Of a stretch of DNA of 64,000 bases, positions 50,731 to 63,406 are shown one piece after another. Position 1 is the first letter of the stretch. Every line of letters starts with the position of its first letter. Source of the DNA: Sphingomonas naphthae (GTDB lineage: Bacteria > Pseudomonadota > Alphaproteobacteria > Sphingomonadales > Sphingomonadaceae). The stretch is from assembly GCF_028607085.1 (NCBI RefSeq), contig NZ_CP117411.1:1364001-1428000 (forward strand), given 5' to 3'. The notes under the pieces are model-generated. The model was not told where the DNA came from. It was given only the letters and a program-made list of their open reading frames with translations, and made no database searches. The translations under genes were made by a program, and so were the position numbers.

Positions 50731-50745
50731 GTTCCCCCCTTGTTC
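50731..50745 (+). promoter_or_regulatory. LexA-binding SOS box upstream of recA
   Basis: GTTC (50731-50734), seven bases, GTTC (50742-50745): the direct-repeat LexA operator known from alphaproteobacteria. About 90 bp upstream of the recA ATG. The second half overlaps a palindrome GTTC-N5-GAAC (50742-50754). Confidence 0.8.
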
Positions 50746-56558: not shown

Positions 56559-57467
56559 ATGACAGGCACCGCGCTCGACGACCATCCCGCCCGCCTGGTC
56601 GCGGCCGATTGGGCGGCGCATCTGGCGCGGGATCGGCGGCGGTCGGTGCATACGGTGCGGGCCTATGTCGCGGCGGCGCATCGGTTGATCGGATTTCTCG
56701 GGCGGCATCGTGCCGGCGCGATCGGCAAGGCGGGGCTGGCCGATGTCGCGCAGGCGGAGTTGCGCGCCTATCTGGCCGAGCGGCGGCAGGACGGGTTGGC
56801 CAATGCGTCGGCCGCGCGGGAATTGTCGGCGTTGCGCGGATTTCTCGCCTTCGCGGGCGATGGCGCGCCGCGCATGGCGGGGCCGAGGGTGAAGAAAGGC
56901 ATCCCCCGGCCGATCGCCCCGGATGATGCGATCGGCTTGGCTGAGGATCTCGACGAGACCGCTTCGCTGCCGTGGATCGGCGCGCGGGATTTCGCGGTGC
57001 TGCTGCTGCTCTACGGGGCCGGCCTGCGCATCGGCGAGGCGCTGGGGCTGACCGCAGCCGCGCTGCCTTTGGGCGAGACGCTCGTCGTCACCGGCAAGCG
57101 CGCCAAGACGCGGGTGGTGCCGCTGATCGCGCCGGTGCGGGACGCGGTTCAGGCCTATGTCGATCTCTGCCCTTACCCGCTGTCACGCGATCTGCCGCTG
57201 TTCCGGGGGGCGCGGGGCGGGGGCTTGTCGGCGGACGTGATCCGCCGGTCGGTGCGCGGGGCGCGGGTACGGTTGGGCCTGAACGATCGCACCACGCCGC
57301 ACGCGCTGCGCCACAGTTTCGCGACGCATCTGCTGGGGCGGGGCGCGGATTTGCGCTCGTTGCAGGAGCTGCTCGGCCATGCCAGCCTGTCCTCGACGCA
57401 GGTCTATACCGGTGTCGATGCGGCGCATCTGCTAGATATCTACAGGAATGCGCACCCCCGCGCCTGA
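56559..57467 (+). CDS. xerC: Tyrosine recombinase XerC
   Basis: 302 residues; with XerD resolves chromosome dimers at dif. N-terminal SAM-like DNA-binding domain (RSVHTVRAYVAAAHRLIGFL), catalytic domain with Arg in GAGLRIGEALGL, Lys in TGKRAKTRVVPL, HxxR in HALRHSFATHLLGRG, His in LLGHASLSSTQ and the nucleophile Tyr in QVYTGVD (~283). Full-length with no integron-type features. 40 bp before dnaE. Confidence 0.94.
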   Translation: MTGTALDDHPARLVAADWAAHLARDRRRSVHTVRAYVAAAHRLIGFLGRHRAGAIGKAGLADVAQAELRAYLAERRQDGLANASAARELSALRGFLAFAGDGAPRMAGPRVKKGIPRPIAPDDAIGLAEDLDETASLPWIGARDFAVLLLLYGAGLRIGEALGLTAAALPLGETLVVTGKRAKTRVVPLIAPVRDAVQAYVDLCPYPLSRDLPLFRGARGGGLSADVIRRSVRGARVRLGLNDRTTPHALRHSFATHLLGRGADLRSLQELLGHASLSSTQVYTGVDAAHLLDIYRNAHPRA

Positions 57468-57507
57468 CGGGGTTTTCCGAATCGGCCGCCGTCCCCATAG
57501 TCCGGCA

Positions 57508-60500
57508 ATGACGGCGTTCGTGCCCCTCCGCATCTTTTCGGCCTACACCATGCTCGAAGGGTCGATCGACCCCAAGGAGATTGCGTCGGCCTCGCGCAAG
57601 CTGGGCTTCCCGGCGGCGGCGATCACCGATCGTAACGGCCTGTATGGCGCGATGGCCTATTCGGACGCGGCGGCGAAATCGGGCGTGCAGCCCGTCATAG
57701 GCGCGATGCTGGCGGTGGCGCGACCCGGCACGCCCGAGGGCAAGCCGGCGCTGCTCGACTGGCTGGCGCTCTACGCGCAGGACAAGGCCGGTTACGACAA
57801 TCTGTGCGCGCTCGTCAGCCAGGCGCACCTCGCCCGGCCGCCGCACGAGCCGGCGCATGTCGCGATGGGCGATCTCGAGGGCCGCACCGATGGCCTGATC
57901 GCGCTGACGGCGGGCGGGGAGGGCGGCATCGCCCGGCTCTTCGCCGAGGATCAGCCTGCTGGCGCGCGAGCCTATTGCACCCGGCTGGAAGGGTTGTTCC
58001 CCCAGCGGCTCTACATCGAACTCGCCCGGCGCGGTGATCGGGTGGAGGAGCGCGCCGAGGACGAACTGGTCGCGCTCGCCTATGATCATGATCTGCCCTT
58101 GGTCGCGACCAACCCGGCCTTTTTTGCCGAGCCCGGCTTCCACGCCGCGCACGATGCCATGCTGTGCATCGCGGGATCGGCCTATGTGGATCAGGACGAG
58201 CGGGCGCGGTCGTCGCCCGATACCTGGCTGAAGCCCGCCGACGAGATGGCGCGGCTGTTCGCCGATCTGCCCGAGGCGATCGCCAATACGCTGGTCGTGG
58301 CCGAACGCTGCGCGGTGGCGGCGCCCAAGCGCAAGCCGATCCTGCCGAGCCTCGCCGGCGATCGCGAGGCGGAATCCGAACAATTGCGGGTGGATTCGCG
58401 CGCCGGCCTCGCCCTGCGGCTCGCCGGGCGGACCTTGAGCGACATGGAGCGCGCGGCCTATTTCGAACGGCTCGATTTCGAGCTGGACGTGATCGTCGGC
58501 ATGGGCTTTCCGGGTTACTTCCTGATCGTCGCCGACTTCATCAAATGGGCGAAGGAACAGGATATTCCGGTAGGGCCGGGGCGCGGATCGGGCGCCGGCT
58601 CGGTCGTCGCCTGGGCGCTCACCATCACCGATCTCGATCCGCTGCGGCTGGGCCTGCTGTTCGAACGCTTCCTCAATCCCGAGCGCGTGTCGATGCCCGA
58701 CTTCGACATCGATTTCTGCGAAACGCGGCGTGGCGAGGTCATCAGCTACGTCCAGAAGAAATATGGCGCCGATCATGTGGCGCAGATCATCACCTTCGGG
58801 CGGCTGAAGGCGCGCGCGGTGCTGAAGGATACCGGCCGCGTGCTCCAGATGAGCTACGGCCAGGTCGATCGCCTCGCCAAGCTGGTGCCCAACCACCCGA
58901 CCGACCCGTGGACGCTCGGCCGCGCCCTCAACGGCGTGTCGGAACTGGCGCAGGAATATAAGAACGACAAGGATGTACGGCGGCTATTTGATCTGGCGGG
59001 TAAGCTGGAAGGGCTGCCGCGCCACAGCTCGACCCATGCCGCCGGCGTGGTGATCGGCGATCGGCCGCTCGATCAACTCGTCCCGCTCTACCGCGATCCG
59101 CGCTCCGATTTCCCGGTCACCCAGTTCGACATGAAATATGTCGAAGGCGCGGGGTTGGTGAAGTTCGACTTCCTCGGCCTCAAGACGCTATCGGTGTTGC
59201 AGAAGGCGGTCGAGATGCTCGCAAAGCGCGGCGTGACGGTCGATCTGCCCGCGCTCGAATGGGACGATCCGGCGGTCTATGCCCTGCTCCAGAAGGGCGA
59301 CACGGTCGGGGTGTTCCAGCTGGAATCGGAAGGGATGCGGCGGACGCTGGCGGCCGTCCGCCCGACCAATTTCGAGGATATCATCGCGCTGGTGTCGCTC
59401 TACCGGCCCGGCCCGATGGACAATATCCCGATGTTCGGCGCCCGCAAGAACGGCCGGGAAGAGATTGAATATCCCCACATCCTGCTCGAACCGATCCTGA
59501 AGGAGACCTACGGGATCTTCGTCTATCAGGAACAGGTGATGCAGGCCGCGCAGATCCTGGCGGGCTATTCGCTGGGCGGCGCCGACATGCTCCGCCGCGC
59601 GATGGGCAAGAAGGTGCAGGCGGAGATGGATGCCCAGCGGAGCATCTTCGTCGAGGGCTGCGCCTCGGTGAACGCCATCCCGGCGGCCAAGGCCAACGAG
59701 CTGTTCGACCTGATCGACAAATTCGCGGGCTACGGCTTCAACAAGAGCCACGCGGCCGCCTATGCGCTGGTCGCCTATCATACGGCGTGGATGAAGGCGC
59801 ACCACAAGCCGGAATTCTATGCCGCTTCCATGTGTTACGACATGGCCTTGACGGACAAGCTCACCATCTTCGTCGACGATATGCGGCGGTTGGGGGTGGA
59901 ATGCCTCGGCCCGGACGTGAACCATAGCGAGGCGGAATATACGGTCGAGGCGGGGAAGGTCCGCTACGCCTTGGGCGCGCTCAAGAATGTCGGCGAGAAG
60001 GCGATGGAACAGCTGGTCGCCGAGCGGTCGGCCAACGGGCGCTTCACCTCGCTCGACGACTTCGCCAACCGGGTCGATCCCAAGCTGCTCAACCGCCGCC
60101 AGATCGAAAGCCTCGCCGCGGGGGGGGCATTCGATTCGATCGATCCCGATCGCGCGCAGGTGCATGGCGGGGCCGAGACGATCCTCGCTCATGCCGCCTC
60201 GGCGCATGGCGAGCGCGAGAGCGGGCAGGGCGGGCTGTTCGGCGACGCCGGCACCGGCACGAGCGCGATCCGCTTGCCCAAGGTGGCGCATTGGAGCCTC
60301 GCCGAGCGGATGTCGGCGGAGAAGGACGCTTTCGGCTTCTACTTCTCGGCGCACCCGACCGATCGCTATCGCCATCTGTCCGACGCTTATGGGGTCAAGA
60401 GCTTCGCCGATCTGGGATCGGTGCCGAGCTTCGAGGTGACCTATGACGATCGCGGCAAGCGCAGCGAGGCGCCGACCTGGAAGATGGCCGCGCTGGTCGA

Positions 60501-60993
60501 GGATGCGCGCTGGCGCACCTCCGCCAAGGGGCGGCGCTACATGATGGCGACCTGCTCGGACGCCTCGGGCCAGTTCATCGCGACCTGCTTCGACGATCTC
60601 GTCTCGGCCGATCTGGAGCAGGCGGCCAAGGCGGGCGGCTGCGGGCTGCTGACGGTCGAGGTGGATCGCCGCCCCGGCGAGGAAACGCCGAGGGTGACGA
60701 TCCGGGGGGTCCAGCCGTTCGAGGGCATGGCGACGACCGTGCGCCTGCGCCTGACGATCGAGACCGACGACCCACGGGCGCTGCCGGCGCTGGCGCAACT
60801 GGTGGCCGGCGCGCGCGGCGGGCGGGGCGAAATCCGGCTGATCGCGCACCTGCCCGATGGGGGCATCCTGCCGATGGCGCTGGGTGGGGATTTCCAGTTG
60901 GATGCCGAACTGGCCGCGCGGATCGAGCGGTTGCCGAGGGTTACGACGACCCTGGCGACAGTGCCGGTGCCGTCGCTACGGATGGTTTCCTGA
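57508..60993 (+). CDS. dnaE: DNA polymerase III alpha subunit
   Basis: 1161 residues from ATG 57508 (a frame start at 57448 overlaps xerC). Replicative polymerase. N-terminal PHP domain whose usual first metal-site His is replaced (LRIFSAYT rather than LRVHSxYS), so no PHP exonuclease is expected, as in E. coli. Catalytic Asp residues in MPDFDIDFCETRRGEV (~396-411) and KFDFLGLKTL (~551), GPGRGSGAGSVVAW, FNKSHAAAYALVAYHTAWMK, then HhH and an OB fold near the end. Confidence 0.96.
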   Translation: MTAFVPLRIFSAYTMLEGSIDPKEIASASRKLGFPAAAITDRNGLYGAMAYSDAAAKSGVQPVIGAMLAVARPGTPEGKPALLDWLALYAQDKAGYDNLCALVSQAHLARPPHEPAHVAMGDLEGRTDGLIALTAGGEGGIARLFAEDQPAGARAYCTRLEGLFPQRLYIELARRGDRVEERAEDELVALAYDHDLPLVATNPAFFAEPGFHAAHDAMLCIAGSAYVDQDERARSSPDTWLKPADEMARLFADLPEAIANTLVVAERCAVAAPKRKPILPSLAGDREAESEQLRVDSRAGLALRLAGRTLSDMERAAYFERLDFELDVIVGMGFPGYFLIVADFIKWAKEQDIPVGPGRGSGAGSVVAWALTITDLDPLRLGLLFERFLNPERVSMPDFDIDFCETRRGEVISYVQKKYGADHVAQIITFGRLKARAVLKDTGRVLQMSYGQVDRLAKLVPNHPTDPWTLGRALNGVSELAQEYKNDKDVRRLFDLAGKLEGLPRHSSTHAAGVVIGDRPLDQLVPLYRDPRSDFPVTQFDMKYVEGAGLVKFDFLGLKTLSVLQKAVEMLAKRGVTVDLPALEWDDPAVYALLQKGDTVGVFQLESEGMRRTLAAVRPTNFEDIIALVSLYRPGPMDNIPMFGARKNGREEIEYPHILLEPILKETYGIFVYQEQVMQAAQILAGYSLGGADMLRRAMGKKVQAEMDAQRSIFVEGCASVNAIPAAKANELFDLIDKFAGYGFNKSHAAAYALVAYHTAWMKAHHKPEFYAASMCYDMALTDKLTIFVDDMRRLGVECLGPDVNHSEAEYTVEAGKVRYALGALKNVGEKAMEQLVAERSANGRFTSLDDFANRVDPKLLNRRQIESLAAGGAFDSIDPDRAQVHGGAETILAHAASAHGERESGQGGLFGDAGTGTSAIRLPKVAHWSLAERMSAEKDAFGFYFSAHPTDRYRHLSDAYGVKSFADLGSVPSFEVTYDDRGKRSEAPTWKMAALVEDARWRTSAKGRRYMMATCSDASGQFIATCFDDLVSADLEQAAKAGGCGLLTVEVDRRPGEETPRVTIRGVQPFEGMATTVRLRLTIETDDPRALPALAQLVAGARGGRGEIRLIAHLPDGGILPMALGGDFQLDAELAARIERLPRVTTTLATVPVPSLRMVS

Positions 60994-61002
60994 CCCCTAC
61001 AC

Positions 61003-61088
61003 CCGTTCGTCCCGAGCGCAGTCGAGGGACGTGGCCCCAAATGGTGTCGCCCAGTCGCCCGTCCTTCGACTTCGCTCAGGCCGAACGG
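61003..61088. repeat. Palindromic dispersed repeat, family A copy 4
   Basis: Arms 61003-61031 and 61062-61088 with several mismatches, between the convergent dnaE and radical SAM genes. Confidence 0.85.
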
Positions 61089-61105
61089 GGGATATCTGGC
61101 GCCCT

Positions 61106-62179
61106 TCAAAACAGGTTCAGTTGCGGCCCCTGTGGCGGCACGAACAGGTCCGTCCTGATCCTGAACCGCTCCCGATTGAGGCCATGGCGTTTGCAGGCGA
61201 TCTGGAAGCGGCCGCGCATCAGATCGGCCCAGGGGCCGGTGCCGCGCATCCGGGTGAAGAAATTGGGGTCGTTCTCCCGCCCGTCGCGGATCGAGGTGAT
61301 GATCGACATGACCTTGCCGGCGCGATCGGGGTGGTGCGCCTCCAGCCACGCCCGGAACAGCGGCGCCACCTCGTGCGGCAGGCGGACGGGCAGGAAGAAA
61401 GCGGAACGGGCGCCGTGGGCGGCGGCGGCCTCGATGATATGCTCCATCTCGTGATCGGTGATCGCGGGGATGACGGGGGCGAGCGACACGAAGGTCGGCA
61501 CGCCCGCATCCGACAGTGCCTTGACCGCCGCCAGCCGGCGGGCGGGGTGCGGCGCGCGCGGTTCCAGCGTGCGCGCGGTCGCCGGATCGATCGTCGGGAT
61601 CGACATCGCCACCGCGACCAGCCCGCGCGCGGCCATCGGCGCCAGGATATCGAGATCGCGCACCACCCGGTTGGATTTGGTGGTGATGGTGCAGCCGTGG
61701 CCATGTTCGGCGAGGATTTCCAGCAGTTGGCGGGTCAGGTGATAGCGGCCCTCGATCGGCTGATAGGGATCGGTGTTGGTGCCCATCGCGATCGGCTTCG
61801 GCTCATAGCCGCGCTTCCCCAATTCGGCGCGGAGGAGGGCGGGGGCATCGGGCTTGGCGAACAGCTTCGTCTCGAAATCGAGGCCGGGCGACAGATCGTG
61901 GAAGGCGTGGGTCGGCCGGGCGAAGCAATAGATGCAGCCATGCTCGCATCCGCGATAGGCGTTGATCGAGCGATCGAAGCCTATGTCGGGGGAGTTGTTC
62001 TTGGTGATGATCGTGCGCGGCGTCTCGTGCGCCACGGTAGTCCGCAGCGGGGGCAGATCGCCGTCGATCGCGCCGCGATCGTCGAGCCAGTCGCCATCCT
62101 CCTCCCGCGCCTTCAGGTTGAAGCGGGTGGAAACTTCGTTGACCGTGGCGCCACGGCCGCCTGTCGCGATCGAAGGCAT
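61106..62179 (-). CDS. PA0069/COG1533 family radical SAM protein
   Basis: 357 residues from ATG 62179 (MPSIATGGRG). Radical SAM cluster motif CEHGCIYCF in GCEHGCIYCFARPTHAFHDL; GTNTDPYQPIEGRYHLTRQL and TTKSNRVVRDLDIL follow. COG1533 includes the spore photoproduct lyase SplB and uncharacterised relatives. No clear ribosome site, but a -10-like TATACC ends six bases before the ATG, which would allow a leaderless message. A LexA-type box (62195-62209) lies 15 bases before the ATG. Substrate unknown. Confidence 0.9.
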   Translation of the reverse strand: MPSIATGGRGATVNEVSTRFNLKAREEDGDWLDDRGAIDGDLPPLRTTVAHETPRTIITKNNSPDIGFDRSINAYRGCEHGCIYCFARPTHAFHDLSPGLDFETKLFAKPDAPALLRAELGKRGYEPKPIAMGTNTDPYQPIEGRYHLTRQLLEILAEHGHGCTITTKSNRVVRDLDILAPMAARGLVAVAMSIPTIDPATARTLEPRAPHPARRLAAVKALSDAGVPTFVSLAPVIPAITDHEMEHIIEAAAAHGARSAFFLPVRLPHEVAPLFRAWLEAHHPDRAGKVMSIITSIRDGRENDPNFFTRMRGTGPWADLMRGRFQIACKRHGLNRERFRIRTDLFVPPQGPQLNLF

Positions 62180-62194
62180 GGCATCGGTATAACG

Positions 62195-62209
62195 GAACAA
62201 AAGAAGAAC
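62195..62209 (-). promoter_or_regulatory. Candidate LexA box before the radical SAM gene
   Basis: On the minus strand GTTC, seven bases, GTTC (plus strand GAAC 62195-62198 and 62206-62209), the same operator form as at recA. It lies between a possible -35 TTGCGT (62213-62208) and -10 TATACC (62191-62186), so LexA would block RNA polymerase. The divergent adh gene starts 85 bp away. Confidence 0.6.
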
Positions 62210-62293
62210 GCAATCGTTTCCGCGATCGGCGGGTTGGTTTTGTCGGCCTGCCCCGGCTAAAGCCCCGGCGACACATCTGCGGAGACAAGCCCC

Positions 62294-63406
62294 ATGAAGA
62301 CCCGTGCCGCCGTCGCGTTCGAGGCGAAGCAGCCGCTGGAGATCGTCGAGGTCGATCTGGAGGGGCCGAAGGCCGGCGAGGTGCTGGTCGAGATCATGGC
62401 GACCGGCATCTGCCACACCGATTCCTACACGCTCGACGGGCTCGACAGCGAAGGGATCTTCCCCAGCATCCTCGGCCACGAGGGCGCGGGCATCGTGCGC
62501 GAGGTGGGGCCGGGCGTGACCAGCGTGGTGCCGGGCGACCATGTCATCCCGCTCTACACGCCCGAATGCCGCCAGTGTAAATCGTGCCTCAGCGGCAAGA
62601 CCAACCTGTGTACCGCGATCCGCGCGACGCAGGGCAAGGGGCTGATGCCCGACGGCACCACCCGCTTCAGCTACAAGGGCCAGCCGATCTTCCACTACAT
62701 GGGCTGCTCGACCTTCTCGAACTTCACCGTCCTGCCCGAGATTGCGGTCGCCAAGATTCGCACCGACGCGCCGTTCCAGACGAGCTGCTACATCGGCTGC
62801 GGCGTCACGACCGGGGTTGGCGCGGTGGTCAATACCGCCAAGGTGCAGGTCGGCGAGACGGTCGTGGTGTTCGGGCTCGGCGGTATCGGCCTGAACGTGA
62901 TCCAGGGCGCGCGGATGGTGGGGGCGGACGTGATCGTCGGCGTCGATCTCAACCCCGATCGCGAGGCATGGGGCCGCCAGTTCGGCATGACCCATTTCAT
63001 CAACGGCACGGGCAAGAGCCGCGATCAGGTGATCGCCGAGGTGCTGGCGCTGACCGACGGCGGCGCCGACTACAGCTTCGACGCGACCGGCAATACCGAG
63101 GTGATGCGGACGGCGCTGGAATGCTGCCATCGCGGCTGGGGCGAGAGCATCATCATCGGCGTGGCGGAGGCCGGGAAGGAGATCGCGACCCGGCCATTCC
63201 AGCTCGTCACGGGCCGGGTGTGGAAGGGCACGGCCTTCGGCGGCGCCAAGGGCCGGACCGACGTGCCCAAGATCGTCGACTGGTACATGAACGGCAAGAT
63301 CGATATCGACCCGATGATAACCCACGTCCTCACGCTGGACGAAATCAACAAAGGGTTCGATCTGATGCACGCGGGTGAAAGCATCCGCTCCGTCGTGGTC
63401 TACTAG
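62294..63406 (+). CDS. frmA: S-(hydroxymethyl)glutathione dehydrogenase, class III alcohol dehydrogenase
   Basis: 370 residues. Oxidises S-hydroxymethylglutathione formed from formaldehyde, using NAD. Catalytic Zn site: [14 protein letters not shown] and [12 protein letters not shown]; structural Zn cysteines in [19 protein letters not shown]; third Zn ligand in [15 protein letters not shown]; Rossmann motif [15 protein letters not shown]. Head of a plus-strand operon with a VOC protein and S-formylglutathione hydrolase. Confidence 0.95.

Follow-up and report, generated by a model that had tools for sequence, protein, structure and literature searches.

The window, i.e. the whole stretch of DNA that was analyzed (64 kb), harbors a gene for a radical SAM protein of the PA0069 family with a LexA-type box of the form GTTC-N7-GTTC in its promoter (Table 1). 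On the minus strand this region reads TTGCGT TCTTCTTTTGTTCCGT TATACC GATGCC ATG, in which the box GTTCTTCTTTTGTTC runs from 62209 to 62195 and the ATG at 62179 begins 15 nt after it. An earlier reading of the sequence alone had placed the box between TTGCGT and TATACC with the ATG about six bases after the -10 element, and the exact coordinates agree. The neighboring genes are the divergent frmA and the convergent dnaE1. The convergent arrangement of dnaE1 and the PA0069-family gene spans 57448-62179 of the window, and dnaE1 was also located near the gene in about 22 sphingomonad loci. This was the only result obtained from clustering of recurrent neighbors, which was dominated by shadow frames.

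Table 1. Genes and regulatory features at the locus, in window coordinates.
Feature	Position	Strand	Remarks
LexA box GTTCTTCTTTTGTTC	62195..62209	-	alphaproteobacterial GTTC-N7-GTTC; conserved in 189/205 alphaproteobacterial orthologues
-35-like hexamer TTGCGT	62208..62213	-	overlaps box by 2 nt; orthologues keep TTG at -35..-33 relative to ATG
-10-like hexamer TATACC	62186..62191	-	16-nt spacer; 6 nt before ATG (62179-62177)
Predicted transcription start (A of ATG)	62179	-	predicted from promoter-to-ATG spacing, C at -1 and no Shine-Dalgarno sequence
PA0069-family radical SAM gene	61106..62179	-	357 aa (P0001); CxxxCxxC at residues 78-85; NF033668, Pfam PF04055
frmA/adhC, S-(hydroxymethyl)glutathione dehydrogenase	62294..63406	+	divergent; TIGR02818; probably outside control unit
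dnaE1, replicative Pol III alpha	57448..60993	+	convergent; NF004226
recA LexA box GTTCCCCCCTTGTTC	50731..50745	+	positive control

The sequence-only reading had described the box as identical in form to the one at recA and had estimated about one chance match per window. Both points were borne out: the radical SAM box and the recA box are exact GTTC-N7-GTTC matches, no third one occurs in the 64-kb window, and the computed expectation for both strands is 1.16. Taken alone, the match at the radical SAM gene is not significant compared to the chance expectation of the window. A coincidental match, as would arise about once per 64 kb, is in line with this expectation and with the occurrence of at least two matches in 34 of 100 shuffles. 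However, among the 78 matches in the host genome the window copy ranked third by its spacer, as scored with a matrix trained on the orthologues without the window's own site, and a score this high is reached by a random spacer with p = 2.8e-4.

The chance explanation was refuted by the conservation of the box. The orthologue set consisted of 80 named loci, plus those retrieved from 192 alphaproteobacterial genomes and from 299 genomes across the phylum, and fetched upstream stretches were searched from -300 to +30 of the conserved start. Of 208 alphaproteobacterial orthologues, 192 have GTTC-N7-GTTC upstream in gene orientation and two in reversed orientation, whereas shuffling predicts about one, an expectation that takes species as unrelated, although spacers and flanks vary freely. 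After removal of near-duplicates the box precedes 189 of 205 alphaproteobacterial orthologues, 55 of 57 in sphingomonads, and it almost always has the orientation of the gene and a position close to the start codon. Conservation in sphingomonads, the check suggested along with the sequence-only reading, was thereby found. About half of the 16 alphaproteobacterial orthologues lacking an exact box have a version with one mismatch, and the consensus of the spacer across the orthologues is T-T-G-(A/T/C)-T-(T/A)-T. Because it is conserved before orthologues, the box is decisively non-random, and coincidence retains hardly any probability. With an operator in its promoter that is kept before its orthologues, the gene is predicted to fall into the alphaproteobacterial LexA (SOS) regulon, and the distribution of these predicted operators shows it to be a near-universal part of that regulon.

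The box also lies in the intergenic region shared with frmA, 84 nt from the frmA ATG, and might therefore serve this divergent formaldehyde-detoxification gene, alone or jointly with the radical SAM gene. However, tblastn searches of the neighbors revealed no further locus in which frmA adjoins the radical SAM gene, which assigns the box to the radical SAM gene, the gene that it tracks in other genomes. In addition, the box is centered in the core promoter of the radical SAM gene. A role for the operator in frmA expression is thus very improbable.

Outside the alphaproteobacteria the same gene is preceded by a different LexA motif. The E. coli-type box CTGT-N8-ACAG was observed before 33 of 52 non-alphaproteobacterial orthologues, among them that of Caballeronia terrestris, where 0.4 are expected; its distance to the conserved start is 35-115 nt in most cases. 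None of these 52 orthologues harbors the alphaproteobacterial box GTTC-N7-GTTC. This indicates that control by LexA was maintained through a change of its motif, and such retention argues strongly for a functional control. PA0069 itself we take to be a member of the SOS regulon of P. aeruginosa. Judged from all these upstream regions, the radical SAM gene is almost certainly under LexA control.

The host genome provides the corresponding regulator. It contains a lexA gene with the same box just upstream, and boxes are also located at recA, uvrA, imuA, radA and a UDG-linked radical SAM gene. As lexA and recA are both present and carry boxes themselves, the host appears to possess a working SOS regulon. 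Several of the genomic boxes were inspected individually. At the second radical SAM gene (TIGR03916, rSAM_link_UDG; locus L300) the box GTTCGATATATGTTC ends about 2 nt before the ATG, with box and gene on opposite strands (G000:C1:2453876-2453890). The LexA-type box GTTCCCTTTTCGTTC directly precedes the gene of the DNA repair protein RadA (G000:C1:2177040-2177054, locus L301). An unexpected SOS candidate is a LigT/2H-phosphoesterase gene with the LexA-type box GTTCATCATATGTTC 35 nt upstream (G000:C1:3492284-3492298, locus L297). Finally, GTTCCTGTTACGTTC (G000:C1:2188803-2188817, locus L296) precedes an open reading frame starting MNMMTQERTALQALIDAHREDY, which by eye resembles an S24/LexA-like peptidase; family models gave no match to its first 110 amino acids.

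The position of the box relative to promoter and start codon was compared among the orthologues. In the 113 orthologues with 22-27 nt between the end of the box and the start codon (class A), the TTG inside the box occupies the -35 position. In 68 of them a TAnnnT element is separated from the ATG by exactly 6 nt and in 10 by 7 nt, with no more than five at any other distance. A Shine-Dalgarno-like run is present in 2/113, and the base before the ATG is a C in 61%. The 38 orthologues with a box nearer to the ATG are likewise enriched in TTG at -35 to -33 and TA at -12/-11 relative to the ATG, and 74% of them have a C before it. Since both groups share these TTG and TA positions, the promoter appears to be fixed to the start codon, with the box sliding over it. 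The window gene, with 15 nt between box and ATG, belongs to the orthologues with a nearer box: it keeps the 6-nt gap and has its box between the -35 and -10 elements, unlike the commonest arrangement, in which the -35 TTG is part of the box.

The usual distance from a -10 element to the start of transcription is 6-7 nt, and the start of the window gene is therefore predicted at the A of the ATG. A -10 element about 6-7 nt before the ATG (78/113 in class A), together with the lack of a Shine-Dalgarno sequence, is the pattern of a leaderless SOS gene. The possibility of leaderless transcription had been raised before, and the -10 element at a fixed 6 nt from the ATG and the absent Shine-Dalgarno sequence support it. 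Alternatively, the mRNA might carry a leader, with transcription starting further upstream or translation starting from the in-frame TTG inside the box, so that the spacing of -10 and ATG would be incidental. The reading frame indeed extends without a stop codon well beyond the ATG in the upstream direction, and rhizobial relatives seem to possess leaders. However, this alternative is unlikely given the sharp peak of TAnnnT at 6 nt (other distances 0-10/113), the lack of a Shine-Dalgarno sequence and the N-termini of the orthologues, which start about eight residues before the conserved RGA motif. A leaderless transcript of the window gene is thus the probable arrangement, as far as promoter sequences tell. 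Leaderlessness is not universal among the orthologues. Those with a longer distance between box and ATG (class C, n = 40, rhizobia among them) carry a Shine-Dalgarno-like sequence in 22/40 and hence have apparently changed to a leadered mRNA. In the rhizobial loci L074-L101 the box is located about 165-255 nt before the conserved region, and an N-terminal extension of the protein and an mRNA leader, often with a Shine-Dalgarno-like sequence, seem to be present.

The family assignment of the product is clear. The PA0069-family model NF033668 matched with E = 1e-137 and 458.8 bits, above its cut-off of 360, and Pfam PF04055 matched as well, whereas the second-best family model, Rv2578c (E = 1e-64, 218 bits), remained under its cut-off of 430. 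The sequence-only reading had linked the enzyme to spore photoproduct lyase (SPL), and this holds for the fold. In a Foldseek comparison of the AlphaFold model (pLDDT 85) with the PDB, ranks 1-6 were all SPL entries, with E about 1e-8, TM scores of 0.48-0.55 and 17-19% identity, which represents a moderate fold match (TM 0.55). However, no SPL family model matched among the NCBIfam models up to E = 10, a search of PDB sequences with the product gave no clear homologue, and the best profile matches by sequence were SkfB and NifB. In SPL a fourth cysteine, C141 in B. subtilis, returns a hydrogen atom (PMC3742179). Across 62 orthologues cysteine is invariant at three positions only, C78, C82 and C85, all within the cluster motif. 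No fourth conserved cysteine was found in them; the next most frequent cysteine column is position 329 with 26/62, and at position 127 a cysteine is present in 19/62. The tyrosine before the last cluster cysteine (Y84) is invariant, and the residue after this cysteine is mainly phenylalanine. Lacking a match to an SPL model and a conserved counterpart of the fourth cysteine, the product is not established as an SPL, and a photoreactivation label is unwarranted.

The product, a member of the COG1533 group, is a [4Fe-4S]/SAM enzyme, and its regulation and fold suggest that its most likely task is the repair or processing of a DNA lesion; direct repair of the lesion appears only slightly favored on the same grounds. 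The enzyme might instead modify RNA, a peptide or a small molecule within the damage response, a less probable though serious option in keeping with the missing counterpart of the hydrogen-donor cysteine of SPL and with SkfB and NifB as best sequence profiles. It is opposed by the rank of SPL as nearest fold, ahead of every other radical SAM entry, by an SOS control that outlasts a switch of the LexA motif, and by reports of LexA-controlled COG1533/SplB or unspecified radical SAM proteins in several phyla, namely in Bacteroidetes, Gram-positives and Balneolaeota (PMC8565304, PMC7739468).

Within the preferred explanation, its regulatory part, a LexA operator repressing the PA0069-family gene, is very likely. 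LexA bound to the operator would cover the core promoter and repress the gene, between the -35 and -10 elements here and over the -35 element in most relatives. DNA damage would activate RecA and lead to self-cleavage of LexA, which would free the promoter for RNA polymerase. The polymerase would then start at or beside the A of the ATG and produce a leaderless mRNA. The product would most likely act on a DNA lesion by radical chemistry, with a hydrogen-return step different from that of SPL.

The PA0069 family might thus represent a DNA-lesion-reversal family apart from SPL, acting on another lesion without a fourth-cysteine donor, and expressed in alphaproteobacteria from a fused operator/-35/-10/start-codon leaderless module that is kept class-wide while the LexA motif differs between classes. 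This combined view is tentative and falls somewhat short of an even chance. The usual label 'spore photoproduct lyase' misfits the active site of PA0069-family enzymes, and the gene is a good target in the search for a new radical-SAM DNA-damage reaction. Given the fixed geometry of LexA box, -35, -10 and ATG, leaderless expression of an SOS gene can be tested directly. SOS control of the gene is largely published already; to this the analysis adds a large-scale extension to sphingomonads and to lineages outside the alphaproteobacteria, the geometry of an apparently leaderless gene, and a comparison of the active site with SPL that turned out negative. Among the papers searched, none describes the tight, apparently leaderless promoter of the gene or the missing SPL cysteine.

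SPL of Bacillus and Geobacillus (PDB 4FHC, 4FHD) shares with the PA0069-family enzyme the CxxxCxxC motif, the nearest fold in the PDB and the tyrosine before the last cluster cysteine. It differs in the tyrosine following this cysteine, where the PA0069 family has mainly phenylalanine, and in the fourth cysteine, which has no conserved counterpart in the PA0069 family. The rSAM_link_UDG gene (TIGR03916), the second radical SAM gene of the host described above, likewise has a LexA-type box beside its start, but it represents a separate family whose name refers to the link with a uracil-DNA glycosylase gene. In Streptomyces venezuelae the radical SAM gene vnz_31145 is bound by LexA and part of the LexA damage regulon (PMC9380542). 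For the Rv2578c family and this actinobacterial LexA-controlled gene the LexA motif differs from that of the window gene. A close precedent is the 'splB' gene of Sanchez-Alberola et al. (2012), for which LexA control was predicted in alpha- and betaproteobacteria (PMC3323433). It resembles the window gene in being controlled in the same way in two groups whose LexA motifs differ, and in its COG1533-type product. That study dealt with multi-chromosome genomes, reported that the trait was not observed in its gammaproteobacteria, and called the product an SPL homologue and photoreactivation enzyme; the geometry of promoter and ATG is not described in the available text. The sequences GTTCTTGCTTTGTTC and GTTCTCTAAATGTTC lie upstream of the orthologues of S. 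meliloti and P. denitrificans, two species that appear in its table, and the S. meliloti orthologue is annotated as PA0069-family in its record. Since both species have the box before the orthologue, this 'splB' very probably corresponds to the PA0069 family. The switch of the LexA motif under a maintained control agrees with the argument of Sanchez-Alberola et al.
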